Assembly: GCF_900182955.1 (NCBI RefSeq)
Contig: NZ_FXUL01000036.1
Span: forward strand, 1 to 35,072
From: Noviherbaspirillum suwonense
GTDB taxonomy: Bacteria; Pseudomonadota; Gammaproteobacteria; Burkholderiales; Burkholderiaceae_D
Length of the DNA: 35,072 bases
Direction of reading: 5' to 3'
The notes beneath the pieces were generated by a model. It was given only the letters and a program-made list of their open reading frames with translations. It searched no databases and was not told where the DNA came from. The position numbers and the translations under genes were made by a program. Shown here piece after piece: positions 1-24,084 of this stretch (the first letter of the stretch is position 1; each line of letters begins with the position of its first letter).

Positions 1-110
1 AAGCGCTCGGGGCGCACTGCCTGGCGCGCCAGCAGCATGGCCGGAATTTCGGTTTCCATCGTGGTGTTCGAGCTCGGCACGATCTGGCCGATGCGATACG
101 TTTTCTGCAT
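1..110 (-). CDS. Maleate cis-trans isomerase / Asp-Glu racemase superfamily, N-terminus only (cut by window edge)
   Basis: The minus-strand ATG at 108-110 opens a frame that runs off the left edge of the window after about 36 codons. It begins MQKTYRIGQIVPSSNTTMET, the characteristic opening of maleate isomerases and arylmalonate decarboxylase relatives, where the PSSNTTME stretch forms part of the substrate pocket. A strong Shine-Dalgarno (GGAGGAGA) lies at about 113-122. Only 17 bases separate it from the decarboxylase gene upstream, so the two are very probably co-transcribed. In nicotinate and picolinate catabolism a maleate isomerase (NicE/PicG) makes fumarate at the end of the pathway, which fits the neighbours. 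The catalytic cysteines are outside the window, so the exact activity is inferred from context. Confidence 0.8.
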   Translation of the reverse strand, partial: MQKTYRIGQIVPSSNTTMETEIPAMLLARQAVRPER

Positions 111-127
111 GATGTCTCCTCCTTCGT

Positions 128-1122: not shown

Positions 1123-1134
1123 TCAGCATACTGA
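1123..1134 (-). promoter_or_regulatory. PicR-type operator upstream of the decarboxylase gene
   Basis: TCAGCATACTGA is a palindrome with 4-base arms around CATA, and it recurs in front of three other transcription units in this window. On the minus strand it is followed by AATATAAA, a possible -10, so the operator would lie between -35 and -10; no good -35 is visible. It lies 33 bases upstream of the picC start codon. Binding by the MarR protein encoded at 5861-6349 is inferred. Confidence 0.75.
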
Positions 1135-1150
1135 CTAAAAAGACTTTTAA

Positions 1151-1173
1151 AAGGCAGCGCGTTGCGCTGCCTT
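1151..1173 (-). terminator. Rho-independent terminator of the molybdenum hydroxylase operon
   Basis: A perfect 10-base-pair stem (AAGGCAGCGC / GCGCTGCCTT) with a GTT loop stands 5 bases past the stop codon at 1178. On the minus strand it is followed by TTTTAAAAGTCTTTTT. It separates the hydroxylase operon from the operator and promoter of the decarboxylase operon just downstream. Confidence 0.8.
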
Positions 1174-1177
1174 CGTC

Positions 1178-2383
1178 TCACTGTCGGCCGAACAGCCGCT
1201 TCAGCCGCGCCCAGAGTATCTGGAGCACGGCGCCGACCACGCTGACAGACTTTGCCGGAAGATCCGCCGCGCCGGCGCCGCCCATGCGGGCGGCGAGATT
1301 ACGTCCAAAGTCGGCAATCATGCGCGTCACGAAATCGCGCACCAGTCCCGAGCGGGAAAATTGCGCCAGCGCGCCTTGCAACATGTGATCCAGCGTGATA
1401 TCGACCCGGGTGCGCCGGTCATCAATGGCGACGATGCGGTAGCCGACGTCGCCTTTCGCGCGCGACTGGCTGATGCTGTCGGTGCCAGCGCCGCGCAGCA
1501 TGCCGCTGCGCGCGGCGTCGTCGCGTTCCAGCACCGCCGAGCCGTTGAAGGCGGCGGCGATCGGGCCGAACTTGATGGCGATCCGGCCCTTGACGCTGCG
1601 GCCGTCGTTCTCCAGCACTTCGGCGCCGGGCAGGCAGGACGCCAGCGCCTCGACATTGCCCATGAAGTCCCACACCTGCTGCGCCGGGAAGTCGACGGTG
1701 AAGCTGTCCTCGATATGGGACCAGCCCTTGCGGCTTTCCGTGGCCCCGGACGGCGCCTGCGCTGCCGGGACGGCAGCCGGCGCCTGGTTGACGGCAACGA
1801 ACGGGCGCATCGGCGCGGCGGCCTTCACTGGCGCCGGCGTCGGCGCCGCTGCCGGCGCGGGTTGCGCGACAGGTTCAGATTTCAGGTCCGCCAGCACCGA
1901 CTGGATGGCGCGAACAATGCCGACATAGCCGGTGCAGCGGCAGAGATTGCCGGACAGCTCGATACGGATGCGTTCCTCGTCGGCATCGGGCAAGCGCCTG
2001 ACGATATCGTAGGCCGTGGCCAGCATGCCCGGCGTGCAATAGCCGCATTGCAGCGCATGCTCCCGGCTGAAGGCCGCACGCAGCTTTGCCATCCACGGAT
2101 CGTCGCCATAGCCTTCGATGGTGCGCACGTCCTTCTGGTCGCAGGCCACGGCGAAGGTGATGCAGGAACGCACAGGCTGGTCGTCCACCAGCACCGTGCA
2201 TGCGCCGCAGACGCCGTGCTCGCAGCCCAGGTGCGTTCCAGTCAGTCCGCAATGGTCGCGCACAAAATCCCCGAGATGGGTTCGTGGCGTCGCATCGTGA
2301 CGCACCCAGGCGCCATTGAGGTGCAGCCTGATCGGCTGCGGCGCGGCCGTCAGTGTCGCGCCAAACTCTTCGTTCATCTTCAT
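1178..2383 (-). CDS. Molybdenum hydroxylase [2Fe-2S] subunit fused to a CoxG-type SRPBCC domain
   Basis: A 401-residue two-part protein. Residues 1-165 are the small subunit of xanthine dehydrogenase-family hydroxylases. Ligands for a plant-type [2Fe-2S] cluster are C54, C59, C62 and C74; those for the second cluster are C113, C116, C148 and C150. After an Ala/Pro-rich linker (about 172-225), residues 230-375 form a CoxG-like SRPBCC domain (SFTVDFPAQQVWDFMGNVEA), ending in a hydrophobic/basic helix (VVGAVLQILWARLKRLFGRQ) of the kind that ties CoxG to the membrane. Small subunits normally stop near 160-170 residues, so the fusion is unusual. The start codon overlaps the stop of the FAD subunit (ATGA). 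In a pic setting this would be one subunit of picolinate dehydrogenase (PicA); the substrate is inferred from neighbours. Confidence 0.88.
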   Translation of the reverse strand: MKMNEEFGATLTAAPQPIRLHLNGAWVRHDATPRTHLGDFVRDHCGLTGTHLGCEHGVCGACTVLVDDQPVRSCITFAVACDQKDVRTIEGYGDDPWMAKLRAAFSREHALQCGYCTPGMLATAYDIVRRLPDADEERIRIELSGNLCRCTGYVGIVRAIQSVLADLKSEPVAQPAPAAAPTPAPVKAAAPMRPFVAVNQAPAAVPAAQAPSGATESRKGWSHIEDSFTVDFPAQQVWDFMGNVEALASCLPGAEVLENDGRSVKGRIAIKFGPIAAAFNGSAVLERDDAARSGMLRGAGTDSISQSRAKGDVGYRIVAIDDRRTRVDITLDHMLQGALAQFSRSGLVRDFVTRMIADFGRNLAARMGGAGAADLPAKSVSVVGAVLQILWARLKRLFGRQ

Positions 2384-3261
2384 GCTGCCCCCGCAACCTT
2401 GTCCTGTTCATTCACGCCCAGCGCCTGCCGGACCGCACGCTTCACCGCGGCTTCGATCAGCCGGCGGTCGACCGCGTCCTTCGATTGGGCCGCCTGCGCC
2501 ACGGCGTCCCTCACTGCGGAATCGGTCAGCGCGTCCATGCCCTGGCCTGCGACTTGCGCCGCCAGGCCGGCCAGCGACGCCGGGGCGCCGTCCAGTGCGC
2601 CGATGACGATGCGGGCGACGCCACGCTGCGGGTCCAGCACCACCGCGCAGCTTGCTTCGGCGAACTCGCCGGTCTTGCGGCAAAACTTGTAATAGCCCCA
2701 GCGCATGTCGGCCGTATAAAGCGGCACCAGCACGCCAGCGAGCAGTTCACCGTCTGCGAGCGCGGTGGTGAATGCGCCAGACATGAATGCCGTGGCCGGC
2801 ACCCGCCGGGTGGCGCTGGATGACACGCACTGCAGCTGCGCATCGAGCGCCGCCATGGCCAGCACCCAGTCGGCTGCGGGATCCGCATGCGCGAGGCTGC
2901 CGGCCAGCGTGCCGCGGTTGCGCACCGCGCGGTAGGCGATGGTGCCGGCGACATGACGCAGCATTCGCGCCAGCGGCGCCGCCTCCTCGGCCAGCGCGGC
3001 GTCGAGCGCGCCGTCCTCGATTGCTGCATGGGTCAACGCGCCGCCGATGAACAGGCTGCCATCGCGCCGTTCCACCCGGGCCATGTCCTGCGCACCGGAA
3101 ATATCGACCAGCATGGCCGCCCGCACCAGGCGCATGTTCAGCATCGGCCCCAGGGACTGGCCGCCGCCGAGGACCTTGACGCCGGCGTCGGCATTGCTGC
3201 AGGCTTGAATCGCGTCGGCCAGCGAGCCGGCGCGTTGATAGGCAAAGGGCGCGGCTTTCAC
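2380..3261 (-). CDS. Molybdenum hydroxylase FAD-binding (CoxM-type) subunit
   Basis: A 293-residue medium subunit of a xanthine dehydrogenase/CO dehydrogenase-family enzyme, passing electrons from the [2Fe-2S] subunit to FAD and on to an acceptor. Visible FAD motifs are GGGQSLGP at 32-39 and RNRGTLAGSLAHADP at 114-128, and the length is normal for the family. The start is GTG at 3259-3261, supported by a GGCGGAGG ribosome site and by the typical opening MKAAPFAYQRAGSL. It overlaps the stop of the large subunit by four bases (GTGA), and its own stop overlaps the next start, so the three subunits are translationally coupled. Confidence 0.92.
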   Translation of the reverse strand: MKAAPFAYQRAGSLADAIQACSNADAGVKVLGGGQSLGPMLNMRLVRAAMLVDISGAQDMARVERRDGSLFIGGALTHAAIEDGALDAALAEEAAPLARMLRHVAGTIAYRAVRNRGTLAGSLAHADPAADWVLAMAALDAQLQCVSSSATRRVPATAFMSGAFTTALADGELLAGVLVPLYTADMRWGYYKFCRKTGEFAEASCAVVLDPQRGVARIVIGALDGAPASLAGLAAQVAGQGMDALTDSAVRDAVAQAAQSKDAVDRRLIEAAVKRAVRQALGVNEQDKVAGAA

Positions 3262-5666
3262 AGTGCCTCCGCCTGTTCGGGGATTGCGGCCGGCGTCACC
3301 GGCGCTATCGCTTCGGCCTGCGCGTTCGCCAGTGCGGCCAGCAGGCGGTGCGGCGTAAGCGGCGTTTCGGTCACTTCCGCACCGAGCGAGCGGATCGCGT
3401 CGTTTACCGCATTGAAGATTGCGGCCGGCGGCCCGATCGCGCCGCCCTCGCCCACGCCCTTGATGCCGAACTCGGTGTGGGGCGACAGCGTTTCCATATG
3501 CTCGATGCGAAACATCGGCAGCTCGGTCGGCCCCGGCAGGATGTAGTCGGCCAGCGTCGATGTCAATGGCTGCGCATTGTCGTCGTACAGCACTTCCTCA
3601 TACAGCGCAGTGCCGATGCCCTGCGCGGCGCCGCCGTATGCCTGGCCTTCGACCACCATCGGATTCACCATCCGGCCGCAGTCCTCGACGATCACGTAAT
3701 CCAGGATGTCCACCTTCCCTATCTCCGGGTCCACTGCGACCACGCAGGCATGGGTTGCATAACTGAAGGCGCCGGTGTCGACGCCGGGCTTGTAGCCGGC
3801 GGTTACTTCAAGGCCATTGGTATCCACGTTGGCCGGCAGGAGTTGCGGATTGACGTACCAGGCATTGGCGATCTTTGCGATGGTCACCCGCTCGGCCCCT
3901 GCCACCACGGCGCCGCCTTCCAGCCGCACGCTGTCTTCGGGCTGGCGCAGCAGGTGCGCGCCGATGCAGCGCAGCCGCGGCAACAGCATCTTGCAGGCCT
4001 TCGATACCGCGCCGCCCGACATCACGATGGAGCGCGATGCATAGGTGCCGGTGGAATACGGCGTGGCGCCGGTGTCGCCATGCACGACGCGGATGCGCGC
4101 CACCGGGATGCCCAGGATTTCGTTGGCGATTTGCGCCATCGTCGTTTCCATCCCCTGCCCATGCGAGTGGACGCCTACCCGCACTTCCAGCCCGCCGTCC
4201 GGCGTCAGCCTGACGGTCGCCTGGTCATGTCCCGGCACCACCGGCAGTCCCCATGCGGCAAACACCGAGGTGCCGTGCGCCGACTGTTCCGTGAAGGTCG
4301 CGAAGCCGACGCCAATCAGTTTGCCGCTGGCTTCCCCCTTCTGCTGCCGCGCGCGCACTGCCGCGACATTGATCATTTCCACCGCGCGCTTGAGGCTTGC
4401 CTGGTAGTCGCCGCTGTCGTAATGCTTGTTGGCGACGTTCTTGTACGGCATCGCGCTGGCCGGCACCAGGTTTTCGTAACGGACTTCCCATGGCTCCCGC
4501 CCGACTTCCCGGGCAATCGCATCCATCACCAGTTCGATGGCGAAGCAGACGCCGGTGCGGGCCACGCCGCGGTACGGCAGAAAACCCGGCTTGTTGGTGG
4601 CAACGCATTCGGTGCGGCAGCGGTACCCGCGAAAGTCGTAGGGGCCCGGCAGATTGCCGGCCGCCTGGCCAGGCTCCAGCGCGGTCGTGAATGGCCAGGC
4701 GGAGTAGGCGCCGCCGTCGATCGTGATGTGGGCGTCCAGCGCCAGCAGGCGGCCGGTCCGGTCTGCATAGGCGGTCAGCTCGTAATGATGCTGGCGCGAG
4801 TTCGCTCCGGCAATCAGGTGCTCACGCCTGTCCTCGACATAGCGGAATGGCTTCTTGTAGCGCAGCGCGAGCCAGGCAATGCAAAGTTCCTCTTGCTGCA
4901 GCACGCACTTGTAACCGAAGGCGCCGCCCACATCCGGGGAAATCACGCGGATCATGCCCTGGTCGATACCGAGATAGGTGGCAAGGCCGGTGCGGATCAG
5001 GTGCGGCACCTGCGTAGCGCTGTAGACGATCAACTGGTGGAACTGATGGTCCCAGTACGCCAGCACCGCCTTGCCTTCCATCGGCACCATGCACTGGCGG
5101 GCCAGATCCACGGTCCTGCGTATGACCACCGGCGCATTGGCCGCATGCTGCTCGAAGTCCTTGTCGATATCGATCGAGAGGAACAGGTTGTCGCTCCAGT
5201 GATCGTGGACGCGCACATCGGTGTTGCCGCGCGCGACGTCCGCGTTCGGTATAGGCGGGAGCTCGTCAAGGTCCAGCCCGATGGTCTCGATGATGTCTTC
5301 CGCCTCGGCGCGCGATGCCGCAAACGCCATTGCCACCGGCTCGCCGGCGAAGCGCACCTTTCCCGATGCCAGCGGCGGCTGCGCCGACGATTTGTAGCTG
5401 GGAAGCGTGCACTCCGGTTCGATGTCAAGGGCGCCCGCCATGTCGTCACGCACGATGACCTGGCCGGCGCACGCATCCGGCTTGTGGATTGCCGCAATGC
5501 GCGCATGCGCCAGCGGGCTGCGCAGGAAAGCCACTTCCTGTGTGCCCGGGATGACCAGGTCGGCGACGAAGCGGCCCAGCCCATGCAGGTGCCGCTCGTC
5601 TTCCTTGCGCTGGACCCGGGCGCCGATGCCGCCATCAGTCTGCGTTGCTCCGTGTGTGCTATCCAT
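3258..5666 (-). CDS. Molybdenum hydroxylase large subunit (xanthine dehydrogenase family; probable picolinate 6-hydroxylase)
   Basis: An 802-residue molybdopterin-cytosine-dinucleotide subunit. Hallmarks are GGAFG at 247-251, the active-site loop PYRGVAR at 364-370 and the catalytic glutamate E740 in GVGEGG. True form-I CO dehydrogenase carries AYXCSFR in that loop; this does not, so CO oxidation is unlikely and hydroxylation of an N-heteroaromatic ring next to the nitrogen is expected. It is the first gene of a coupled three-gene operon (large, FAD, FeS-CoxG), which is the reverse of the common medium-small-large order. A clear ribosome site (AAAGGGA) precedes the ATG at 5666. An operator lies 107 bases upstream in the region shared with the divergent marR gene. 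The picolinate assignment rests on context; nicotinate- or quinoline-type substrates remain possible. Confidence 0.88.
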   Translation of the reverse strand: MDSTHGATQTDGGIGARVQRKEDERHLHGLGRFVADLVIPGTQEVAFLRSPLAHARIAAIHKPDACAGQVIVRDDMAGALDIEPECTLPSYKSSAQPPLASGKVRFAGEPVAMAFAASRAEAEDIIETIGLDLDELPPIPNADVARGNTDVRVHDHWSDNLFLSIDIDKDFEQHAANAPVVIRRTVDLARQCMVPMEGKAVLAYWDHQFHQLIVYSATQVPHLIRTGLATYLGIDQGMIRVISPDVGGAFGYKCVLQQEELCIAWLALRYKKPFRYVEDRREHLIAGANSRQHHYELTAYADRTGRLLALDAHITIDGGAYSAWPFTTALEPGQAAGNLPGPYDFRGYRCRTECVATNKPGFLPYRGVARTGVCFAIELVMDAIAREVGREPWEVRYENLVPASAMPYKNVANKHYDSGDYQASLKRAVEMINVAAVRARQQKGEASGKLIGVGFATFTEQSAHGTSVFAAWGLPVVPGHDQATVRLTPDGGLEVRVGVHSHGQGMETTMAQIANEILGIPVARIRVVHGDTGATPYSTGTYASRSIVMSGGAVSKACKMLLPRLRCIGAHLLRQPEDSVRLEGGAVVAGAERVTIAKIANAWYVNPQLLPANVDTNGLEVTAGYKPGVDTGAFSYATHACVVAVDPEIGKVDILDYVIVEDCGRMVNPMVVEGQAYGGAAQGIGTALYEEVLYDDNAQPLTSTLADYILPGPTELPMFRIEHMETLSPHTEFGIKGVGEGGAIGPPAAIFNAVNDAIRSLGAEVTETPLTPHRLLAALANAQAEAIAPVTPAAIPEQAEAL

Positions 5667-5772
5667 ACTGTCCCTTTAGGTGGTCCGCGATCAGCGCTGA
5701 AAGCCACGGCAGGCATGCCAGGCCCCGAGCACCGCGGCAAACAACAATTGCCGCCAATTACGACCTAATTAA

Positions 5773-5784
5773 TCAGCATACTAA
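5773..5784. promoter_or_regulatory. PicR-type operator between the hydroxylase operon and the divergent marR gene
   Basis: TCAGCATACTAA differs from the other three sites by one base in the right arm. It stands in an AT-rich stretch (5765-5795) of the 194-base divergent region, so one site could control both the hydroxylase operon and the regulator itself. No strong promoter hexamers stand out on either strand, so the positions of -35 and -10 are not assigned. Confidence 0.7.
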
Positions 5785-5860
5785 CTAATTTTATTGCGCC
5801 GGGCTTGTGTTTTTCAGGCCGGACACGATAATCAATCCATCTCATCACAGACCCCTCGCC

Positions 5861-6349
5861 ATGCCAAGAAAAAAAACAGCCACACTGACGCAGCCCATCG
5901 TGCCGCTCACGTCGCGCCCCGGTTTCCTGATTCGCCGGCTCAACCAGATCCACTACGCGATCTTCTTCGAAGAATGCCGCGACTTCAACATCACCCCGGT
6001 GCAATACGGCATGCTGACCGCGCTCTCCGTCGCGCCGGGCCTGGACCAGAAGGCGCTGGGCCTGGCGGTAGGCCTGGACCGTACGAACACGGCTGACGTG
6101 CTCAAGCGGCTCGAGGAGCGCGGCCTGGTCACGCGCCAGCAAAGCGAAACGGACGGCCGCGTCAAGCATGCGTTCATCACCGCCGAGGGCCTGCAGATCA
6201 CCAACGCGATGTACGCCGCGATGATCTCCGCTCAGCAGCGCCTGCTGGCGCCGCTCTCCGAGGAAGACCGGGCCAAGTTTCTCGAACTGCTCCATGTCCT
6301 GGTCGATTCCAACAACGAGTTCGGGCGCGCCTCGATGAAGGCGCTTTGA
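5861..6349 (+). CDS. picR: MarR-family transcriptional regulator (PicR-like)
   Basis: A 162-residue MarR protein. It has a dimerising N-terminal helix region (about 22-45), a winged helix with recognition helix at about 73-86 (DRTNTADVLKRLEERG), a wing at about 91-108 (TRQQSETDGRVKHAF), and a C-terminal dimer helix. The ATG at 5861 is preferred over an upstream in-frame GTG at 5807 because MPRKKTATL gives a normal MarR length. It is divergent from the hydroxylase operon and convergent with the oxygenase operon (13-base gap). In A. faecalis JQ135 a MarR protein, PicR, represses pic genes and is released by 6-hydroxypicolinate (recalled). The four matching palindromes in this window make it the obvious regulator of this cluster. 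DNA binding and effector are inferred. Confidence 0.82.
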   Translation: MPRKKTATLTQPIVPLTSRPGFLIRRLNQIHYAIFFEECRDFNITPVQYGMLTALSVAPGLDQKALGLAVGLDRTNTADVLKRLEERGLVTRQQSETDGRVKHAFITAEGLQITNAMYAAMISAQQRLLAPLSEEDRAKFLELLHVLVDSNNEFGRASMKAL

Positions 6350-6362
6350 CCCTCCTGCATTC

Positions 6363-6878
6363 CTAGACCGGGTAGACCAGGTCAGTCGCAATCATGGTCG
6401 TGTCGTACACTGCCTGGCGCTCCCGCAGCAACAGCCTGTTTCCCTGCCGCACGAAGCGATCGAAGTAACGGCCGGCCAGGTGCAGCGTCGTCGGTCCATC
6501 CACCAGCGTCTGCAGCAGGATGAAGCTGGACTGGGCGCGAAACTCGCCGTCGTCCTGCTGCGCCAGCACCCGCACGTTGCCGGTGACATGCAGGTTGTAG
6601 CGCGGCGCAAACATCTGGGTCCGTGCAATCGACACCGCGCGGTCCTGCAGCATGCCCTTGCCTTCCGCATAGACCAGCCCGACCAGCATGCCGGCATCCG
6701 CATTTTCCCGCGCGGTGATGCGATAGATCGCGTCATCGGTAAAGAATTCCGGCCATTGCTCGACTTCGCCCGCATCGAGCACCGCGCAGTATTCGGCATT
6801 GAATTCCTCGACCGCGAAACGCAGTTCCCGTGCCGCGGCCGGGTCGATGGCCGGGGGTTCAAATCCTGTCAGCTTCAT
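6363..6878 (-). CDS. Rieske oxygenase small (beta) subunit
   Basis: A 171-residue aromatic-ring-hydroxylating oxygenase beta subunit with an NTF2/SnoaL-like fold. Typical features are an N-terminal acidic helix (AVEEFNAEYCAVLDAGEVEQ), the WPEFFTDDAIYRITARENAD strand-helix, and ARTQMFAPRYNLHVTGNVRV in the middle. It has no cofactor ligands; the subunit is structural in the alpha3beta3 hexamer. The ATG at 6878 is chosen because GCGGAG sits six bases before it. An upstream GTG at 6896, overlapping the stop of the alpha gene, would add six residues (MKAEPK) but has no ribosome site. It is the last gene of the ferredoxin-alpha-beta operon and runs convergently into marR with no terminator visible. 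Confidence 0.88.
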   Translation of the reverse strand: MKLTGFEPPAIDPAAARELRFAVEEFNAEYCAVLDAGEVEQWPEFFTDDAIYRITARENADAGMLVGLVYAEGKGMLQDRAVSIARTQMFAPRYNLHVTGNVRVLAQQDDGEFRAQSSFILLQTLVDGPTTLHLAGRYFDRFVRQGNRLLLRERQAVYDTTMIATDLVYPV

Positions 6879-6892
6879 TTTCGGCTCCGCCT

Positions 6893-8185
6893 TCACAAAT
6901 CCATGACTTCACGATAATGGCGATACATCGCGCGGATCGCCGCTTCGGAAATCAGTGAATCGGCAGTGCCGACATTGCCGGCGTCGAGCTTGATCACGCT
7001 CTGCTCCGTGGTCGACTTGCTGATGCCCTCCTGGGTGAAACGCAGCGCCTCGTTGTCTTCCAGGCCAAGGAAGCCGGATGGCCCCATCAGGTTGCCCTGG
7101 CGCAGCCGGTGGCGGGTCATTTCCTCGGTGTCATCCTCGTAGCCGAACATGGTCCACATCATCACGAAGCTGTTCGGGCCGTTCGGCACGATGTGGCGCA
7201 CGCCCAGGGTGTTCATCTCGCGCTGCACGATCAGGTTGGGCCAGATGGTCTGCATCGTCACCGACCACGGCGAGTCGAATTCCTTGATGTACTCAAGGAA
7301 ACGTTCGTCCTGCAGTTTCATGCCTTCGTGGAACGAACGCATTTCCTTCTTTGTGTCGTCGCTGACTTTTGCATACTTGTCTTCCTTTTTCGCCGACGCC
7401 ATCGTGCCGTGGATGCCGTACTTGCTGTCGGCAATCATCGCCGACTCGTTTCCCGCCACCATCAGGCCGAACACGACCAGGAAGGAATGCAGCAGGGTCG
7501 CGTGATAGGGATCCTTCAGGTTCTCGTGGTACATCTTCCAGTTGGCCGGCACTTCATTCTTGTAATAGCCGTGAAGGTGCAGCTTGCGGCCGTTGAAGAC
7601 GACGTCGAAGTCCTTCAGGATTTCCGGGGTCAGGTAGTCTTCCAGCGGCTCCATGTCATGGCAGAAGGATGCGAAAACGACGCCGTTCCGGGTTGTCACC
7701 GCCAGCTGCTTGAGACCATGATTTTCATTCCGGAAATCCTTGGGCATGCCGCCTGCCTTGTTCACGCCGCGCTTGAAGGGAATGCCCTGCAGGTTGCCCT
7801 TCAAATCATAGGACCACTGGTGATAGGGACAGACAAATTCCTTGTTGTTGCCGCGTGCGTTGCGGCAGAACTCGGCGCCGCGGTGCGCGCAGCGATTTTC
7901 GAACACATGGATGCTGCCGTCCTCAGCACGCGACACCACCACCGGCGTCGGGCCGACATAGGAGCGCTTGTAGTCGCCCACGTTCGGGACTTCCACTTCG
8001 AGCGCCACGTAATTCCACGTGCGACCGTGAAAGATGCGCTCGACTTCGCGCTCGTAGATCGCGTCGCTGGTATAGACCCAGTCGGGAATGCAGTCCAGGC
8101 CGTCGGCCGGCCAGACATGGTCGTCGATCTGTTCAGGATTTTTGGTGCCGGCCATGCGGCCCAGGATGGCTTGTGATTGAAACAT
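6893..8185 (-). CDS. Rieske non-heme iron oxygenase large (alpha) subunit, probable 6-hydroxypicolinate 3-monooxygenase component
   Basis: A 430-residue ring-hydroxylating oxygenase alpha subunit. The Rieske [2Fe-2S] ligands are C99, H101, C119 and H122 (CAH and CPYH). The bridging aspartate and mononuclear iron ligands are D225, H228 and H233 in NLKDPYHATLLH; the carboxylate iron ligand lies in the C-terminal third and was not pinned down. A GGAG ribosome site precedes the ATG. It lies between the ferredoxin gene (38 bases upstream) and the beta subunit gene. In the published pic pathway a four-component oxygenase (PicB) converts 6-hydroxypicolinate to 3,6-dihydroxypicolinate, the substrate of the decarboxylase at 128-1090. 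By sequence alone it could equally be an anthranilate- or salicylate-type oxygenase. Confidence 0.9.
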   Translation of the reverse strand: MFQSQAILGRMAGTKNPEQIDDHVWPADGLDCIPDWVYTSDAIYEREVERIFHGRTWNYVALEVEVPNVGDYKRSYVGPTPVVVSRAEDGSIHVFENRCAHRGAEFCRNARGNNKEFVCPYHQWSYDLKGNLQGIPFKRGVNKAGGMPKDFRNENHGLKQLAVTTRNGVVFASFCHDMEPLEDYLTPEILKDFDVVFNGRKLHLHGYYKNEVPANWKMYHENLKDPYHATLLHSFLVVFGLMVAGNESAMIADSKYGIHGTMASAKKEDKYAKVSDDTKKEMRSFHEGMKLQDERFLEYIKEFDSPWSVTMQTIWPNLIVQREMNTLGVRHIVPNGPNSFVMMWTMFGYEDDTEEMTRHRLRQGNLMGPSGFLGLEDNEALRFTQEGISKSTTEQSVIKLDAGNVGTADSLISEAAIRAMYRHYREVMDL

Positions 8186-8223
8186 CGTGCGCTCCGGTAA
8201 TGATCGGGTTTAAGCGGGCTGGT

Positions 8224-8529
8224 TCAAATGTCGGCAAGCAGGTCGTCGCCGTCCACGCGCACCGGATAGACCTTGATGTCTTCGGTCACGGGCGCGCACA
8301 TGGCCTTGCCGGTGCGGATGTCGAAGCTGCCCTGGTGCAATGGGCATTCGATGCAGCCGTCCTCGAAGTAACCGTCCGACAGCAGCGCGTACTGATGGGT
8401 GCAGACATTGCTGGTCGCAAAAAATGCGGCCTTGTCCCGGTACAGGGCAATCTGCTGCCCTGCCGCCGTAACGCCCACCACTTCGCCTTCAGCAACTTCG
8501 TTGGCCGCTGCAACCCTGGTCCACGCCAT
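8224..8529 (-). CDS. Rieske-type ferredoxin component of the ring-hydroxylating oxygenase
   Basis: A 101-residue soluble Rieske ferredoxin that carries electrons from a reductase to the oxygenase. Ligands are C43 and H45 (CTHQ) and C62 and H65 (CPLHQGSFD). The length is normal for the NdoA/BphF type. An AGGAGAG ribosome site lies 4-5 bases before the ATG. It is the first gene of the oxygenase operon, directly behind an operator (8553-8570) and a near-consensus promoter (8587-8615). No ferredoxin reductase gene is present anywhere in the window, so the fourth component must be encoded elsewhere. Confidence 0.92.
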   Translation of the reverse strand: MAWTRVAAANEVAEGEVVGVTAAGQQIALYRDKAAFFATSNVCTHQYALLSDGYFEDGCIECPLHQGSFDIRTGKAMCAPVTEDIKVYPVRVDGDDLLADI

Positions 8530-8552
8530 GTTTCTCTCCTGTGTCCGCTAAA

Positions 8553-8570
8553 TAGTCAGCATACTGACTA
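8553..8570 (-). promoter_or_regulatory. PicR-type operator of the Rieske oxygenase operon (best copy)
   Basis: TAGTCAGCATACTGACTA has perfect 7-base arms around CATA, the most complete version of the palindrome in the window. It begins about 17 bases downstream of the predicted -10 element, that is at about +10 to +27. A repressor bound there would block transcription start or early elongation. Confidence 0.8.
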
Positions 8571-8586
8571 AAATGTGATGCATGCA

Positions 8587-8615
8587 AATGTAGTGCCTGT
8601 GTTTAATCGTGTCAA
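8587..8615 (-). promoter_or_regulatory. Sigma-70 promoter of the Rieske oxygenase operon
   Basis: On the minus strand TTGACA (8610-8615) is followed after exactly 17 bases by TACATT (8587-8592). Both hexamers are near consensus and sit immediately before the operator and the ferredoxin gene. Confidence 0.7.
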
Positions 8616-8649
8616 TTGCTTTTTGCCTGAGAGCGGTAGCCAGCGTGAA

Positions 8650-9417
8650 TCAATCGCGGGGCCGCCGCCATGGCGTTGCCGCACGCTCCAGCCAGGCCAG
8701 CAGGCCGAACAGCGCAATGCCCATGATAACCAGCACGATGATGGCTGCAAAGACCCGCGGCGTATCGAAGGTGCCCTGCGCGCTCAGGATCACATAGCCC
8801 AGGCCGCGCTGCGATGCCACGAATTCGCCGACAATGGCACCGATCAGCGCGAGCGAGATCGCGACCTTCATCCCGGTCAGGATGGACGGCAGAGCACTCG
8901 GCAGCCGCACCTTGAAAAAGAAGTCGAGCGACGAACCCTTGAGCACCCGTCCGAGGTCCAGCACGTCGTTGGGCACCGAGCGCAGCCCGTGCACGGTGTC
9001 GACGATGATGGCGAAGACCGCGATCAGGAAGGCGATCGAGATCTTCGGTTCGGCGCCGGTTCCCAGCCAGATCACGAACAGAGGCGCGATGGCCACCTTG
9101 GGCACGCTGTTCATTGCGATGATCAATGGATAGACCGCGCTTTCGAACCAGCGCGAACTGACCAGCAGCACCGCGATGGCCACGCCGAATATGACCGCCA
9201 GCGCGAAGCCGGCCAGCGTGGTCAGCAACGTGTACCACGCATGGTCGAGATACCAGCCGCGCTCGGCCCACAATTCCACGAACACCGTGCTGGGCGGGGG
9301 CAGCATGATGGGCCGCACGTGCAGGAGCCGAACCAGGACTTCCCAGGCGAGAATGAACAAGGCAAGCGAGGCGACGGAAACCATGCCGTGCCCGCTACGC
9401 CGCAATAGTCCCTTCAT
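8650..9417 (-). CDS. ABC transporter permease, SsuC/TauC (nitrate-sulfonate-taurine) type
   Basis: A 255-residue inner-membrane permease of the importer family for nitrate, sulfonates, taurine, hydroxymethylpyrimidine and aromatic acids. About six hydrophobic segments are visible (about 12-35, 62-86, 96-118, 125-142, 185-205 and 222-242). The cytoplasmic EAA-like loop that docks on the ATPase lies at about 156-177 (GRVLKGSSLDFFFKV). Its ATG overlaps the stop of the ATPase gene (ATGA). It is the last gene of a binding protein-ATPase-permease operon headed by a PicR-type operator, so import of picolinate or a similar aromatic acid is inferred. The substrate cannot be read from the sequence. Confidence 0.9.
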   Translation of the reverse strand: MKGLLRRSGHGMVSVASLALFILAWEVLVRLLHVRPIMLPPPSTVFVELWAERGWYLDHAWYTLLTTLAGFALAVIFGVAIAVLLVSSRWFESAVYPLIIAMNSVPKVAIAPLFVIWLGTGAEPKISIAFLIAVFAIIVDTVHGLRSVPNDVLDLGRVLKGSSLDFFFKVRLPSALPSILTGMKVAISLALIGAIVGEFVASQRGLGYVILSAQGTFDTPRVFAAIIVLVIMGIALFGLLAWLERAATPWRRPRD

Positions 9418-10199
9418 GCGGCCTTCTCCTCGCTGATCAGTCCCATCTCCTGGAACAGCTCGCGGATCCGATTGCAGTAGCGGCCGAATTCGGGAGATTC
9501 GCGCACCGAAAGCTTGCGCGGCCGCGGCAGGTCGATGGTCAGCACCTCGGCGATGCGCCCCGGCCGGGGCGAGAAGACGACAACCCGGTCGCCCAGGAAC
9601 ACCGCTTCGGCAATGCCATGGGTGACGAACAGCACAGTGTTGCGCGTCTCCAGCCAGATGCGCTGCAGCTCGACATTCATCTGGTCACGGGTCAGCGCAT
9701 CGAGCGCCCCGAAAGGCTCGTCCATCAGCAGCAGCGCCGGGTCGTCGATCAAGGCGCGGCAGATCGCGGCGCGCTGGCGCATGCCGCCCGACAGTTCCTG
9801 CGGATAGCGGTTGCTGAAGTCCTGAAGACCGGTCAGCTTCAGCAGGTCCGCCATTTTTTGGCGATAGGCCGATGTCGCTTTCTTCTTGAATTCGATCGGC
9901 AGCAGGATATTGTTCTCGACGCTGCGCCATTCCAGAAGCGCATCCCGCTGAAACACCATTCCGATGTTGTCCGGCGGCCCGCTGACCTTCTTGCCCTGCA
10001 CCGCCAAATGGCCTTCGCTGATCGTTTCCAGCCCGGCGACGCAACGCAGGAAAGTGCTTTTCCCGCAGCCGCTCGGTCCCAGGATGCTGACGAATTCACC
10101 CGGACGGGTTTCAAGGGAAACCGAGTCGAGGGCCAGCACGCCCCGCTCGCCCGGATAAACCTTGCGCACATGGCGCGCCTCGACCGCCGGGACCGTCAT
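9414..10199 (-). CDS. ABC transporter ATP-binding protein, SsuB/TauB type
   Basis: A 261-residue nucleotide-binding subunit. The Walker A motif is GPSGCGKST at 41-49, the Q-loop glutamine is Q84, the signature is LSGGMRQR starting at 136, the Walker B is LLLMDEP ending near 162 and the switch histidine is H194 (FVTHG). All catalytic residues are present. The gene overlaps both neighbours by four bases, so it is translationally coupled to the binding protein upstream and the permease downstream. It energises the importer described for those genes. Confidence 0.93.
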   Translation of the reverse strand: MTVPAVEARHVRKVYPGERGVLALDSVSLETRPGEFVSILGPSGCGKSTFLRCVAGLETISEGHLAVQGKKVSGPPDNIGMVFQRDALLEWRSVENNILLPIEFKKKATSAYRQKMADLLKLTGLQDFSNRYPQELSGGMRQRAAICRALIDDPALLLMDEPFGALDALTRDQMNVELQRIWLETRNTVLFVTHGIAEAVFLGDRVVVFSPRPGRIAEVLTIDLPRPRKLSVRESPEFGRYCNRIRELFQEMGLISEEKAA

Positions 10200-11233
10200 T
10201 TAGCGACCACTTTGCTGAACAGCTCCGGCTTGATCATGTTGGGCTCGAAGTATTCGGCGGCGCTGTGGCTGTCCTTGATCAGCCCCGCGGCCGACAGGGT
10301 TTTTATCGCGACCGTCCATTCCGCGGCAACCGACACGCCCTCCGGCTGCCCCGCGGTTTGAGGACTGCTCATGAAATCCTTCAGGGCATCGATCTGGCCG
10401 CGCAATACCTTCTTGTCCAGTCTTGCCTGCGGACGCTGGGCGACGATGGCGTCGACGGCTTCATCCTGGTGGCCTTCATAGATATATTGCCACGCGCCGG
10501 CAGTGATCGACGCAAAGCGGCTGATGGCGTCTCCCTTGGCTTTCAATTTATCTTCGCTGGCGAAGATGCCGAAGCTGGGCATATTCAGCCCGTAGCTGGA
10601 AAAACGGATCGCGTCCGACGGCCTGCTCTGGGACACCGACGGCAGAACGAACGGGATGGTCGAGAAGACCGCGTCGGTGCGGCCCGCGACATAGGTGCCG
10701 ATCTTGCCGGACGCGTCCACGTTGATCAGGTCGACGTCGCTGCGTTTGAGGCCGCCGGCGCTCAGGAACGCGTCGATGAATGGCGCTTCAAGCGACCCGG
10801 CGGTATAGGCGACCTTCTTGCCCTTCAGATCCTTCGGGCCCTTGATGCCGGATTCCTTGGGAACGAGCAGGCCAATATCGCTCTGGTGCGCGAACACGGC
10901 CACGGCCTTGACCGGCAAACCCTTTTCCCGAGCGATCATCATCGAGGCCAATGCCGCATGACCGACGTCAAACTGGTCGCCCGAACCGACGATCTGGACC
11001 GTCGTGACCGACCCGTTGCCGTCCTCCAGGCTGACATCCAGCCCGGCTTGCTTGAACCAGCCCTTCTGCTGCGCCAGATGAAAGGGCGCCTGCACGCCCC
11101 ATGGCGTCCAGTCAAGACGCACTTTCAGCTTTTGCAGATCCTGCGCCAGCGATTGCGCAGACAATGTCAGTCCCGCTATGCAAAATGCCGCCGCAGCCCA
11201 CACCTTTGCATTGATGCCCTGATGCTTTTTCAT
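10196..11233 (-). CDS. ABC transporter periplasmic substrate-binding protein, SsuA/NMT1-THI5 type
   Basis: A 345-residue exported binding protein. Residues 1-30 form a signal peptide (basic MKKHQGINAK, hydrophobic core, SLA-QD cleavage site). The mature part opens with LKVRLDWTPWGVQAPFHLAQ and GWFKQAGLDVSLEDG, typical of NMT1/THI5-like proteins that bind small sulfonates, pyrimidines or aromatic carboxylates. AAAGGA precedes the ATG. It is the first gene of the importer operon, with a promoter at 11325-11352 and an operator at 11304-11315 shared in sequence with the pic operons. The ligand is inferred, from regulation alone, to be picolinate or a pathway-related acid. Confidence 0.9.
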   Translation of the reverse strand: MKKHQGINAKVWAAAAFCIAGLTLSAQSLAQDLQKLKVRLDWTPWGVQAPFHLAQQKGWFKQAGLDVSLEDGNGSVTTVQIVGSGDQFDVGHAALASMMIAREKGLPVKAVAVFAHQSDIGLLVPKESGIKGPKDLKGKKVAYTAGSLEAPFIDAFLSAGGLKRSDVDLINVDASGKIGTYVAGRTDAVFSTIPFVLPSVSQSRPSDAIRFSSYGLNMPSFGIFASEDKLKAKGDAISRFASITAGAWQYIYEGHQDEAVDAIVAQRPQARLDKKVLRGQIDALKDFMSSPQTAGQPEGVSVAAEWTVAIKTLSAAGLIKDSHSAAEYFEPNMIKPELFSKVVAK

Positions 11234-11303
11234 TCATAGTCCTTTGATGAGAAGACAGTTGAAATCGCCATCCACGACGCCGGCCGTTCCACAGCAGCCT
11301 TAC

Positions 11304-11315
11304 TCAGCATACTGA
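11304..11315 (-). promoter_or_regulatory. PicR-type operator of the ABC importer operon
   Basis: TCAGCATACTGA is identical to the core of the sites at 1123 and 8556. On the minus strand it starts just after the predicted transcription start, 71 bases before the binding-protein ATG. This puts the importer in the same regulon as the catabolic genes. Confidence 0.78.
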
Positions 11316-11324
11316 CTACTTGGC

Positions 11325-11352
11325 AGTATAGATCAAGCGTTTATGCTGTCAA
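11325..11352 (-). promoter_or_regulatory. Sigma-70 promoter of the ABC importer operon
   Basis: On the minus strand TTGACA (11347-11352) is followed after 16 bases by TATACT (11325-11330), only one mismatch from consensus in total. The operator lies immediately downstream, the same layout as at the oxygenase operon. Confidence 0.75.
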
Positions 11353-11602: not shown

Positions 11603-12532
11603 ATGCGCAGGAAAATCCCGAGCACCGGTGCACTCATCGCATTTGAAGCAGCTGCACGTTACCAAAGCTTTTCCCGCGCAGCGCAAGAGTTGACGCTGAC
11701 TGAAGGCGCCATCAGTCGCCAGATCGCGGTGCTGGAAGACTACCTGGGCGTGCAGCTCTTCCATCGCGTCAAGAAGCGCGTCACCCTGTCGGACATCGGC
11801 ACCGCCTACTTCATCAAGGTGAAGGAAGACCTGACCCGGCTTGAACGCAACACCCTGGGGGCGATGGCCTACCAGAATGGCCAGAAATTTCTGGAGCTTG
11901 CCGTCATTCCGACCTTCACCTCGAAGTGGCTTATTCCAAAGATTGCGGAATTCAGCAGACTGCACCCCGGCATCACGATCAATCTGAGCGAACGCGCCCT
12001 TCCCTTCCTGTTCGGGGACACCAATTTCTCTGCGGCCATCCATTACCGCCATCCTGCATGGGCCGGATGCGCGCAGGAAGAATTGTTCGACGAGGAGCTG
12101 GTGCCGGTCTGCAGCCCGGCCTTGCTGGGTGGGCGCAAGGTCAGCTCCGTGGTGGATTTGCTGAGCTTCCCGATGCTGCATAAAAATACGCGCGAAGATG
12201 CCTGGACGCGCTGGTTTGCCGCGGCCGGGCACGAGGAGCTGGCGCCGATGGCGGGGCCGAGATATGACCTGTTCTCGATGATCATCCAGGGCGCGTGCCA
12301 CGGCATCGGCATTGCGCTCGTGCCGCGTTTGTACGTGCAGGACGAACTGAAGAGCGGCACGCTGGTCATACCGGTCGACTTTTCCATTCGCGGCCTGAAG
12401 CAATACTGCGTGGTGTACCCGGAGCACAAGGAAGTGTCGCCGGCCGCGCGGCTCTTCCTGGACTGGCTGGTCGACGCCGCGGCGATGGAACGACAGCCGC
12501 GGGCGGCGCCGGCAATGACGAAGGCCGGCTAA
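11603..12532 (+). CDS. LysR-family regulator, GcvA-like
   Basis: A 309-residue LysR regulator. The N-terminal helix-turn-helix is at about 8-67, with FEAAARYQSFSRAAQELTLT and EGAISRQIAVLEDYLGVQLF typical of the GcvA/AmpR branch. The rest is a periplasmic-binding-like effector domain (about 92-300). It lies divergent from the importer operon, 370 bases away, and convergent with a second LysR gene. It could control the importer or a gene elsewhere; nothing in the sequence decides this. The last 15 or so residues are Ala/Pro-rich and probably disordered. Confidence 0.9.
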   Translation: MRRKIPSTGALIAFEAAARYQSFSRAAQELTLTEGAISRQIAVLEDYLGVQLFHRVKKRVTLSDIGTAYFIKVKEDLTRLERNTLGAMAYQNGQKFLELAVIPTFTSKWLIPKIAEFSRLHPGITINLSERALPFLFGDTNFSAAIHYRHPAWAGCAQEELFDEELVPVCSPALLGGRKVSSVVDLLSFPMLHKNTREDAWTRWFAAAGHEELAPMAGPRYDLFSMIIQGACHGIGIALVPRLYVQDELKSGTLVIPVDFSIRGLKQYCVVYPEHKEVSPAARLFLDWLVDAAAMERQPRAAPAMTKAG

Positions 12533-12605: not shown

Positions 12606-13508
12606 CTAGACGGCGTCGTTGCGGATGAAATCGACAAAGGCCCGCAACGGCGCGGGCAACAGCCGCCGTCCGGGATAGTAAAGAAACGGTCCGGAAAAAC
12701 GCGGCCACCAGGGCTCCAGCACGGGTTCGAGCAAGCCGCGGTCGATGTATGGACGCAGCCAGTCCTCGAACAGGTAGACGATCCCCGTGCCAGCCACCGC
12801 GACGTCGACGGCCAGGTCGATGGCGCCGCCGACCTGCACCAGCAACGGCCCGGACGGATCGATCATCACCGTCTCGCCGTCTCGCTCGAATACCCAGCGG
12901 ATCAGTGCGCCGCTCGCAAATCGCGCGCGCATGCAGGTGTGGTCGAGCAGGTCGCGCGGATGTGCCGGCTGACCATGCAGCGCGAGGTAAGACGGTGAGG
13001 CGGCCGCTGCCATGCGCTGGACCCGCGGCCCGATCGGCACCGCGAGCATGTCCTGCTCCAGCCTTTCCTCGTAGCGGATGCCGGCATCGCAGCCGGCTGC
13101 AAGCACGTCGACGAAGCTTTCTTCCGCGATGATCTCGAGCCGTATTTCCGGATACGCCGCGAGAAAGCGGGGCACGATCGCCGGCAGCACGAGCCGGGCC
13201 GCGCTTACCGGCACGTTCAGGCGCAGGGTGCCCGTCGGCGTGTCGCGAAAACCGTTGATGACGTCGAGCGCGCTGTCGACTTCGCTGAGCACGGGATCGA
13301 GCCGCGCAAGCAGGCTCAGGCCCGCTTCCGTCGGCACGACGCTGCGCGTGGTGCGGTTGAGGAGACGCACGCCGAGCTTGGCTTCGAGGCGCCGCACGGC
13401 TTCGCTCAGGCCCGATGCACTGCTGCTCGTGACGCGGGCGGCATCGCGAAATCCCCTGGCCCGCGCCACGGCGACGAAGGCGGACAAGTCGCCGAGATCG
13501 ACTTTCAT
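12606..13508 (-). CDS. LysR-family regulator divergent from the aldo-keto reductase
   Basis: A 300-residue LysR protein. The N-terminal winged helix (about 3-62) contains FVAVARARGFRDAARVTSSS and SGLSEAVRRLEAKLGVRLLN. The effector domain follows (RLNVPVSAARLVLPAIVPRF). The ATG at 13508 is chosen because AAAAGGAG lies 10 bases upstream; a start at 13517 would sit almost on top of that site. It is divergent from the aldo-keto reductase, 130 bases apart, the usual arrangement for a LysR regulator and its target. The effector is unknown. Confidence 0.9.
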   Translation of the reverse strand: MKVDLGDLSAFVAVARARGFRDAARVTSSSASGLSEAVRRLEAKLGVRLLNRTTRSVVPTEAGLSLLARLDPVLSEVDSALDVINGFRDTPTGTLRLNVPVSAARLVLPAIVPRFLAAYPEIRLEIIAEESFVDVLAAGCDAGIRYEERLEQDMLAVPIGPRVQRMAAAASPSYLALHGQPAHPRDLLDHTCMRARFASGALIRWVFERDGETVMIDPSGPLLVQVGGAIDLAVDVAVAGTGIVYLFEDWLRPYIDRGLLEPVLEPWWPRFSGPFLYYPGRRLLPAPLRAFVDFIRNDAV

Positions 13509-13638
13509 CGCCGGCATACTCCTTTTCAATGAATTGTTATTGTTCGTTTTTTCGTACAACCCGTCCAGACTATACCGGATTGTCTTGTGATCGGGACGGG
13601 CTTATCGTCCCTGCACAGTCAACCAATCGGAGAGTCAC

Positions 13639-14520
13639 ATGCTTAGCATCGATCGCGCAGGCACCTATCAACTTGGCGACCGCAACGTGCGGCGGCTCGG
13701 CTACGGCGCCATGCAACTGGCCGGCCCCGGCGTTTTCGGCGCGCCCCGCAACCCGGAAGCCGCACAGGCCGTGCTGCGCGACGCCATTTCGCTTGGCGTC
13801 AACCACATCGACACCTCGGACTTCTACGGCCCGCACACGACGAACCAGCTGATCCGCGCGGCGCTGCAGCCGTACGCAAGCGATCTCGTGCTGGTCACCA
13901 AGGTCGGCGCCCGCCGCGACGCGCAAGGCGCCTGGCTGCCGGCATTTTCAAGGGAGGAGCTGCGCCAGGCCGTGCAGGACAACCTGCGCCACCTGGGGTT
14001 GGATGTGCTCGAGGTGGTCAACCTGCGCAGCATGCTGGACGTCCATGGCCCGGCGGAAGGGTCGCTCGAGGCGCCGCTGACGGCCCTGGCGGAGCTGAGG
14101 GATGAGGGCCTCATCCGGCATATCGGATTGAGCAACGTGACGATGCGGCAGGTCAAAGACGCACGCCGCATCATGCCGATCGCATGCGTGCAGAACATGT
14201 ACAACCTTGTCCATCGTAATGACGATGCGATGATCGATATGCTGGCGCGCGACGGCATTCCCTATGTGCCGTTCTTCCCGCTGGGCGGGTTCTCGCCGCT
14301 GCAATCTGACGCGTTGTCTGCCGTCGCCGCGGACCTCGATGCGACGCCGATGCAGGTGGCCATCGCATGGCTGCTTCAGCGCTCGCCGAACGTGCTGCTG
14401 ATTCCGGGCACGTCGTCGACGGCGCACCTGCGCGAGAACCTCGCTGCAGCGGCACTGAGGCTGCCGGATGAGATCGTGGAACGGCTCGAGAAAATCGGGA
14501 ATGGCGCCGGCAATAGCTGA
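13639..14520 (+). CDS. pdxI: Aldo-keto reductase of the YdbC/PdxI (pyridoxal reductase) type
   Basis: A 293-residue NADPH-dependent aldo-keto reductase. Its opening (RLGYGAMQLAGPGVFGAPR) and blocks such as NHIDTSDFYGPHTTNQLIR, SNVTMRQVKDARRI and YVPFFPLGGFSPLQS closely resemble E. coli YdbC, described as pyridoxal reductase PdxI. Of the usual catalytic tetrad, D58, Y63 and K88 are present, but the histidine is replaced by asparagine (N128 in VVNLR), as in YdbC itself. A CGGAGAG ribosome site stands four bases before the ATG. It is monocistronic and divergent from a LysR gene. It may act on pyridoxal or on another small aldehyde; the proximity of pyridine catabolism is suggestive only. Confidence 0.88.
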   Translation: MLSIDRAGTYQLGDRNVRRLGYGAMQLAGPGVFGAPRNPEAAQAVLRDAISLGVNHIDTSDFYGPHTTNQLIRAALQPYASDLVLVTKVGARRDAQGAWLPAFSREELRQAVQDNLRHLGLDVLEVVNLRSMLDVHGPAEGSLEAPLTALAELRDEGLIRHIGLSNVTMRQVKDARRIMPIACVQNMYNLVHRNDDAMIDMLARDGIPYVPFFPLGGFSPLQSDALSAVAADLDATPMQVAIAWLLQRSPNVLLIPGTSSTAHLRENLAAAALRLPDEIVERLEKIGNGAGNS

Positions 14521-14637
14521 GCGGCGCCGGGGTTGGTTTCACCGCGCCTGTGACGTGAGCAAACGCTGCAGGCGCGAGTCATGCATCTGCCTCGCACCTG
14601 CAGCGACCGCCGCTTCACGTTCCTGCCCGGCCCGTAC

Positions 14638-15870: not shown

Positions 15871-15992
15871 GTCAGTCTCCTCCGTGTTGTGATTCTTCCG
15901 GACGGCAGCCCGGCCATGGCGCGGGCATTCGTGCTCGGGCTTGCAGTTGTAATGCCGTATGGATTAAAGCGGTTTGCTGCGGCTGAGAGCCC

Positions 15993-17450: not shown

Positions 17451-17523
17451 GGCGTCTACCTTTCTTTGATTTCTCTGTAAAGCGGCGCAGGCCTACCGGT
17501 GCCGCGTGGACGCACCGCGCCAG

Positions 17524-19002: not shown

Positions 19003-19480
19003 GGTGATGTTCCCATTTCTGATGATTGCCGTGTGCATCAGGCCGGTAGCGGATGCAGCGCCTCGACCGCCTGTCTGGTGAGCATCGATTATTGGCTGGA
19101 CGACAAACGAGATCAAACGATAAGTTTTAATGAGTTTGTGAGGTTTTCTCATTAAGTATCTGTCCGACGCGCAAGCATGGCCCGGCGGCCATTCGCGGTT
19201 CGCTACAGAAGGCAGCTGACGTCAGAGGCACGTCATCTGGAAGCAGTCAGCCAGGCTGTGCCGGCTGGCGGGCACAACGCCGCTGGAGATGGGGATAAGG
19301 ATGGGGATGGTGCGGGTTCAGTCAAACCAACGGGATAGGCTGCCGCGTACTAATTAGCGCAAGATGAATACCCGTAGCATATCCCTTGCGGTCGCCGGTT
19401 GCGAGACGAGGTATCGCGGTCTAAGCCTCGTCAGCAAGCCGGCATTGCATTCAGGCGATCGGATCGTCCTTTCTTGTCGG
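19003..19480 (-). other. Long intergenic region inside the catabolic gene set
   Basis: 478 bases without a credible gene. It contains the dyad at 19127-19155 and, around 19100-19160, an AT-rich stretch. It probably holds a separate promoter for aldehyde dehydrogenase A and the genes after it. Nothing else recognisable. Confidence 0.6.
19127..19155. promoter_or_regulatory. Dyad TTAATGAG-N13-CTCATTAA, candidate operator
   Basis: Perfect 8-base inverted arms at 19127-19134 and 19148-19155 with a 13-base spacer, 125 bases upstream of aldehyde dehydrogenase A in the longest gap of this gene set. There is no U-run, so it is not a terminator. The regulator is unknown. Confidence 0.5.
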
Positions 19481-20917: not shown

Positions 20918-21022
20918 GAGGCTTCCTGTCGGGTGGTGGTTGGACATTGCGTGGTCATGCATGGGCGGGAATGGCAAGCGTTCATACGCCGCAGTGGCGA
21001 TGGCGACGTTTCCTGCTGGCGA

Positions 21023-22622: not shown

Positions 22623-22748
22623 GCTTACTCGCTTTCAGTACTCGGGAAGTGCCAGTCGTATGGACATGCCGTCTCCGCATCGAACCGGTCGGATGACGAA
22701 GGCGGACAGCAGACGACTGGGGTTGTAACGAGCGCCCGCGTCGTCAGT

Positions 22749-23963: not shown

Positions 23964-24084
23964 CTCCAGTAAGGTTGTTTTAGCTTTTTTTAATTAAGGC
24001 GTGCGGAAGCGTTTTGGCGCGACGACCGGCCCGGGGATCGCTGATGCCCCGCAGCGCGGCCATGCCGGCGCCGACGGCGCGGTG

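Follow-up and report, generated by a model that had tools for sequence, protein, structure and literature searches.

The contig of Noviherbaspirillum suwonense considered here (NZ_FXUL01000036.1, 35,072 nucleotides, analyzed in its entirety as contig C36 and called the window below) carries a short palindrome with TCAG and CTGA arms, or a one-base variant of it, in front of a decarboxylase gene, a molybdenum hydroxylase operon with a divergent marR gene, a Rieske oxygenase operon, and an ATP-binding cassette (ABC) importer operon. Judging from sequence comparison, these palindromes are very probably bound as operators by the MarR-family product of 5861-6349 (P0001), which is predicted to repress a picolinate-type pyridine-carboxylate pathway in the manner of PicR. 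Scanning of the full genome (G000; 6.45 Mb in 78 contigs) added another promoter on contig C7, and the regulon is therefore very likely a PicR-type regulon of at least five promoters.

Operator sites in the window

The four sites are given here with their scores against a matrix built from 160 sites of relatives and none from this genome.

1123-1134, operator TCAGCATACTGA, 5' of the decarboxylase gene; matrix score 33.4
5773-5784, operator variant TCAGCATACTAA, between the divergently transcribed marR gene and molybdenum hydroxylase operon; matrix score 30.5; the CTAA variant recurs 5' of relatives' marR
8556-8567, operator, 5' of the ferredoxin/Rieske oxygenase operon; matrix score 35.7
11304-11315, operator, 5' of the ABC importer operon; matrix score 23.3

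Pattern matching confirmed the three identical copies of TCAGCATACTGA (1123, 8556, and 11304) and the copy that is one base off (5773), as the initial annotation had described them. Allowing two mismatches to TCAGCATACTGA, the window contains nine matches, palindrome partners counted, compared to 1.43 +/- 1.31 (maximum, 5) in 100 dinucleotide shuffles. Only two further places fall within this limit, 10079 and 11952, both with two mismatches and both within open reading frames (ORFs). Inside the window the sites are confined to the four units, as described earlier, but the set extends beyond it: the site at C7:338 is of equal quality. Alignment of the four window sites extends the core rightward to the 15-mer TCAGCATACTRACTA.

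Specificity in the whole genome

Whole-genome scanning used patterns rather than the matrix. The exact 12-mer TCAGCATACTGA occurs at the three window sites and nowhere else in the genome, and its one-mismatch class comprises 15 rows, 5773 among them. The 15-mer TCAGCATACTRACTA has four exact matches, all in the window, and none with one mismatch; at up to three mismatches its count (34 + 48, or 82) barely exceeds that of the reversed control (37 + 29, or 66), and so only the top match class is informative. The longer pattern WWTNNTCAGYRYRCTGANNAWW matches perfectly at 1118, 8551, and C7:333 and with one mismatch at 5768 and C25:18942, and its two-mismatch class contains the ABC importer site together with 14 other places in the genome; up to three mismatches, it is found at 141 places per strand, compared to 21 for the reversed control. 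With the matrix, the next-best place in the window after the four sites scores 1.1, and the maximum in a Markov sequence of 6.45 Mb is 18.1.

The initial annotation had asked for a genome free of many unrelated hits at equal score. That is the case for the exact 15-mer; at the level of the consensus it is not, because C25:18942 is as close as 5773, and the outside places of the two-mismatch class are as close as 11304.

Other places matching TCAGYRYRCTGA in this genome number 15 outside the window. Thirteen lie within mechanically called ORFs, and the site at C7:338 was retained. Another, C6:213185, is intergenic, but it scores 14.3 and the next ORF has no family match, and it was rejected. 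The near-consensus palindrome at C25:18942 (L168:4943-4964) stands a few bases 5' of a LysR-family gene outside the pathway; we take it, unproven, as that gene's own site.

Conservation at orthologous promoters

Relatives were collected by scanning a genome collection with the decarboxylase, and the best 80 of 102 relatives' loci were kept. Decarboxylases at least 60% identical define an orthologue set of 57 loci (49 beta/gammaproteobacterial and 8 alphaproteobacterial); the other 23 loci are more distant. TCAG-N4-CTGA lies within 200 bp 5' of the decarboxylase in 41 of the 49 beta/gamma loci, in none of the 8 alpha loci, and in 1 of the 23 loci with a distant decarboxylase. In the same regions, no other permutation of the arm (23 were counted) is found in more than 2 of 57 loci, and the best other tetramer arm reaches 6 of 57. 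The 41 loci represent 13 named genera and one unnamed Burkholderiaceae strain; several are close kin (11 are from Caballeronia and 6 from Cupriavidus), and the counts are for that reason not independent events. One further genome, G098, found in a sample of 399 genomes from the taxonomic order, also has the cluster and the sites.

Eight beta/gamma loci are exceptions. A one-mismatch site precedes the decarboxylase in L127 (Variovorax) and in L137; four further Variovorax loci (L092, L097, L102, and L116) have none there and carry sites 5' of ferredoxin and marR; L122 lacks one at the decarboxylase and carries a one-mismatch copy 5' of marR; and L111 has none 5' of the decarboxylase, ferredoxin, or marR and a single site downstream of its decarboxylase. 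Under a stricter count, which required a YRYR spacer and a distance of up to 300 bp from the gene, sites were found at 32 (perfect) plus 2 (one mismatch) of 49 decarboxylase genes, 36 plus 5 of 42 ferredoxin genes, and 19 plus 13 of 35 marR genes. Nine of the 15 decarboxylase loci that fail this count are Caballeronia loci with CCTA, TCTA, or TCCA spacers.

A MarR orthologue accompanies the cluster in 56 of 57 relatives, 42 times in the locus and 14 times elsewhere in the genome, L115 being outside the search. The genome-level search was positive in 17 of 17 genomes, three of which had a MarR known from the locus already. These co-occurrences, with the sites at the decarboxylase, at ferredoxin/oxygenase, and at marR itself, bear out the earlier proposal of a single regulon with its MarR gene inside. 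The four units then named did not make up the whole set. On this comparison the palindrome is a conserved putative operator.

An origin of the palindrome as a dispersed repeat, or as a word arising by chance, is next to inconceivable in our estimate. The behavior of the 15-mer at three mismatches would suit such an origin, but the exact class is restricted to the upstream regions of pathway units, the site is conserved 5' of the decarboxylase across the 13 named genera where 255 other arms are not, and a clear gap separates the matrix scores of the sites from the rest.

Binding by a different protein, for instance the GcvA-like LysR regulator encoded at 11603-12532, is a more serious alternative that we nevertheless consider very unlikely. 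That gene adjoins the importer site, and C25:18942 lies directly 5' of another LysR gene. However, the window LysR protein has no match of at least 40% identity in the 80 relatives' loci, compared to the near-universal MarR. Moreover, among 28 MarR homologues outside pic clusters, 8 are preceded by TCAG-YRYR-CTGA with no more than one mismatch, and other arm permutations reach at most 1; two other tetramer arms reach 6, and this last result is for that reason suggestive only.

Two further observations concern the distribution of the cluster and its sites. Upstream of marR in the Bradyrhizobium loci L130, L133, L135, and L136, a common half site, GATGTATACTGAGTA, is retained rather than the full palindrome. 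Ten large plasmid records from Burkholderia, Caballeronia, and Variovorax contain decarboxylase orthologues that are 63 to 74% identical.

Form of the operator

The spacer is YRYR in 155 of 176 TCAG-N4-CTGA places in the 49 beta/gamma loci, in 2 of 5 places in alpha loci, and in 0 of 7 places in distant loci. The flanks are AT-rich; in 74% of 163 sites (three from the window itself) a T precedes the core by three bases and an A follows it at the same distance. Perfect sites that lie less than 60 bp apart are spaced by 20 to 23 bp in 17 of 17 pairs, and pairs of a perfect and a one-mismatch site by 20 to 22 bp in 15 of 15. Such a pitch would equal two turns of the helix, the spacing expected if a pair of dimers occupied the same face of the DNA. 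Of the 21 loci in which the best site near marR has one mismatch, 11 have the CTAA variant seen at 5773; these counts include the window and G098. The recurrent CTAA site and the 20- to 23-bp pairing offer concrete hypotheses on autoregulation and cooperativity, and the refined matrix may make pic regulons readable in other Burkholderiales genomes.

The MarR protein and its predicted ligand pocket

The best sequence match of P0001 in the PDB is PcaV (4fht), with which it shares RR and His in helix 1; the pathway of PcaV is that of protocatechuate, unlike the pyridine-acid pathway here. P0001 also aligns with BpsR, one of the repressors of nicotinate breakdown, which has the MarR fold in common with P0001 and is distant in sequence. 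BpsR binds 6-hydroxynicotinate through Tyr15, His23, Arg26, and His32, with Arg26 contacting the carboxylate and His32 the ring nitrogen (PMC6837509). In the alignment, R25 of P0001 corresponds to Arg26 and H31 to His32.

H31 is conserved in 44 of 44 aligned MarR proteins (the window, G098, and the 42 in-locus orthologues). Among 26 other homologues, a comparison that left out 4 further matches, a molybdenum hydroxylase is present in the fetched stretch for 4 of 5 with H31 and for 0 of 21 without it (p = 0.0003, ignoring kinship). It is conceivable, though on balance we doubt it, that TCAG-YRYR-CTGA is the ancestral operator of a PcaV/BpsR-like branch of MarR proteins, often occupied by a pair of dimers that share a DNA face and are 20 to 23 bp apart; that helix-1 residue 31 marks the ligand class, His beside N-heteroaromatic molybdenum hydroxylases and Ala or Ser elsewhere; and that the marR site of the pic branch is often one base weaker (CTAA), which would steady the supply of repressor. 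If this were true, operator and ligand class could be deduced from sequence.

Pathway genes and probable substrate

The genes of the four units, with the gene at the left contig end, are as follows.

3-110, minus strand, start of a maleate-isomerase-like (PicG-like) gene running off the contig end; assigned by position, a racemase-family gene being there in L100
128-1090, minus strand, Amidohydro_2 amidohydrolase-type decarboxylase (PicC-like); nearest solved structure gamma-resorcylate decarboxylase; 65 to 75% identical to orthologues in 57 relatives
1178-2383, minus strand, hydroxylase small subunit, 2Fe-2S fused to a CoxG domain, 401 amino acids
2380-3261, minus strand, hydroxylase flavin adenine dinucleotide (FAD) subunit
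3258-5666, minus strand, hydroxylase molybdopterin large subunit
5861-6349, plus strand, MarR-family regulator (P0001), proposed PicR-type repressor
6363-6896, minus strand, Rieske oxygenase beta subunit
6893-8185, minus strand, Rieske oxygenase alpha subunit; nearest solved structure salicylate 5-hydroxylase
8224-8529, minus strand, Rieske ferredoxin
8650-9417, minus strand, ABC importer permease
9414-10199, minus strand, ABC importer ATPase
10196-11233, minus strand, NMT1/SsuA-like substrate-binding protein of the ABC importer

The marR gene is divergent from the molybdenum hydroxylase operon. The window thus contains a three-part molybdenum hydroxylase of the PicA class and a PicC-class decarboxylase, the latter assigned by family, orthologues, and structural neighbor rather than by direct comparison with JQ135 or RB50 sequences; the 36-residue fragment at 3-110 gave no profile match. 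The nearest structures, gamma-resorcylate decarboxylase and salicylate 5-hydroxylase, suggest a chemistry apt for a hydroxylated picolinate. Picolinate is degraded via 6-hydroxypicolinate and 3,6-dihydroxypicolinate to 2,5-dihydroxypyridine, as set out in PMC10142695, and the set of hydroxylase, Rieske oxygenase, and gamma-resorcylate-type decarboxylase fits this route.

The same operator and MarR mechanism could also serve a different N-heteroaromatic acid, in a PicR-like sister regulon, a reading that we hold to be improbable. The pathway enzymes are named by class only, MarR homologues with H31 also stand beside other molybdenum hydroxylases, and PcaV, a protocatechuate sensor, has His at the same position. 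The fit of the enzyme set to the picolinate route argues for picolinate itself, as do orthologous clusters in Bordetella petrii and B. ansorpii, with decarboxylases that are 69 to 70% identical; both species are counted among the pic carriers in PMC10142695.

A fifth promoter and the contig ends

Three of the four parts of a Rieske oxygenase (alpha, beta, and ferredoxin) are encoded in the window units, with no reductase gene among them. The operator at C7:338, with a matrix score of 33.9, is as good as the window sites, and a weaker one (18.1) lies 21 bp further. Behind it follow, in order, DctP, DctQ, and DctM of a tripartite ATP-independent periplasmic (TRAP) importer, a ferredoxin reductase (C7:3696-4931), and a CynX-like transporter. 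The C7 DctP is 61 to 76% identical over its full length to the cluster DctP of 15 relatives, G098 included, and a sixteenth relative has a partial DctP. The reductase has matches in 47 of 59 sequences searched, the long ones 36 to 48% identical, and in relatives with both ferredoxin and oxygenase alpha the matches are placed between the two. The operator scan therefore reached the oxygenase component missing from the window, and the C7 reductase would serve the window's Rieske oxygenase. Defined this sharply, the operator works as a search key; in this genome it uncovered an operon apart from the window, in which the absent reductase and another importer are encoded.

The first bases of C7 are the end of an isochorismatase-family gene; the left end of the window is the start of a gene at the position of the relatives' racemase-family (maleate-isomerase-like) gene; the DNA at this left-end gene is conserved in relatives. 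Only these ends of two lower-pathway-like genes are visible of the lower pathway picDEFG. The contig ends at window 1-125, C7:1-195, C8:200153-200347, and C39:25951-26069 lie within lower-pathway-like genes and are pairwise copies, 98% identical, which suggests that the lower-pathway block is present twice in this genome. A second, near-identical genomic copy of the lower-pathway genes is described for RB50 in PMC10142695, and a duplication of that kind would explain the contig breaks.

Promoters and proposed mechanism

Promoter-like sequences stand immediately 5' of the ferredoxin operator (TTGACA-17-TACATT) and the ABC importer operator (TTGACA-16-TATACT), and TAAAAT immediately precedes the hydroxylase operator. 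On C7, TTGACA-17-TACGCT has its -10 element inside the operator, as seen by eye and below the scan threshold. An arrangement of this kind fits repression by obstruction of polymerase.

As long as inducer is absent, a dimer of the MarR protein would sit on WWWTNR-TCAG-YRYR-CTGA-YNAWWW, at or just 3' of the core promoters, and would silence five units. In the window these are the decarboxylase unit, which continues into lower-pathway genes; the molybdenum hydroxylase operon together with marR, transcribed divergently from it; the Rieske oxygenase; and the ABC importer. The fifth is the C7 unit of TRAP importer and reductase. A pathway intermediate such as 6-hydroxypicolinate may then lodge near R25 and H31, between the two halves of the dimer, spreading the reading heads and releasing all units jointly. 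Release of such a repressor by a hydroxylated pyridine acid is what family knowledge would lead one to expect.

Several observations weigh against a PicR-type repressor acting at all of these sites. At marR, the best promoter-like sequence is downstream of the site, and autorepression is therefore doubtful; the promoter-like sequence of the decarboxylase is poor. The ABC importer site scores lowest of the four, and the other genomic places in its WWTNNTCAGYRYRCTGANNAWW class are equally close to the consensus; it therefore draws more support from the exact 15-mer and its promoter position than from that scan. In the strict count, the hydroxylase large subunit has 4 perfect and 1 one-mismatch site in 40 loci, partly because the gene is internal to an operon in relatives. 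Of the 14 marR genes outside the fetched locus, 6 have no site in the 400 bp 5' of the gene, another 6 have a one-mismatch site, and the remaining 2 have a perfect one. Cupriavidus-type loci supply 13 of the 17 perfect pairs, and the pairing does therefore not represent 17 independent cases. P0001 has F22 where BpsR has His23 (PMC6837509). Finally, the 8 alpha loci have decarboxylases that are 66 to 72% identical, and 7 have a MarR, yet none has a perfect site 5' of the decarboxylase; a de novo palindrome search in the alpha clusters found none above 5 occurrences. The alpha MarR recognition helix is not clearly different, and the window protein has N76 in common with the alpha group. Helix and operator hence show no visible covariation, and comparison of the beta and alpha lineages gave no clear signal.

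Comparison with known systems

The PicR regulon of the pic cluster of Alcaligenes faecalis JQ135 (Xu et al. 2022) is reportedly controlled by a MarR-family protein acting on several operons, with TCAG-N4-CTNN said to be the motif and 6-hydroxypicolinate the effector. The window operators, standing 5' of several units, fit this motif, and the two systems are alike in having the MarR gene in the cluster, several operons, and the same pathway logic. Possible points of difference in the window system are an N4 that is largely YRYR with specified flanks, the membership of ABC and TRAP importers in the set, and a reductase gene that stands in the TRAP operon and apart from the oxygenase genes. We would thus place it among repressor-controlled regulons of a known kind, in which, set against PicR as reported, the refined operator and the fifth promoter appear to be new. 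In the literature searched, the literal TCAGTATACTGA and TCAGCATACTGA had no match, TCAG-N4-CTNN was absent from the four papers listed in the search for it, and the operator words had no match in the nicotinate paper PMC10269826. The pic cluster of Bordetella bronchiseptica RB50, compared by its description in PMC10142695, resembles the window in enzyme classes and in a lower-pathway gene behind the decarboxylase, but differs in gene order and in having picT as its importer.

Other genes of the window

Positions 12606-25224 of the window hold a second catabolic set, with a LysR regulator, two periplasmic binding proteins, an FAD oxidoreductase, two aldehyde dehydrogenases, and an iron alcohol dehydrogenase; pattern and matrix scans of the window found no operator-like place within it. 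To the right of the catabolic genes, at 27375-29438, is a gene for a 687-residue protein with DUF3701 and Phage_integrase domains, which possibly marks the border of an island.

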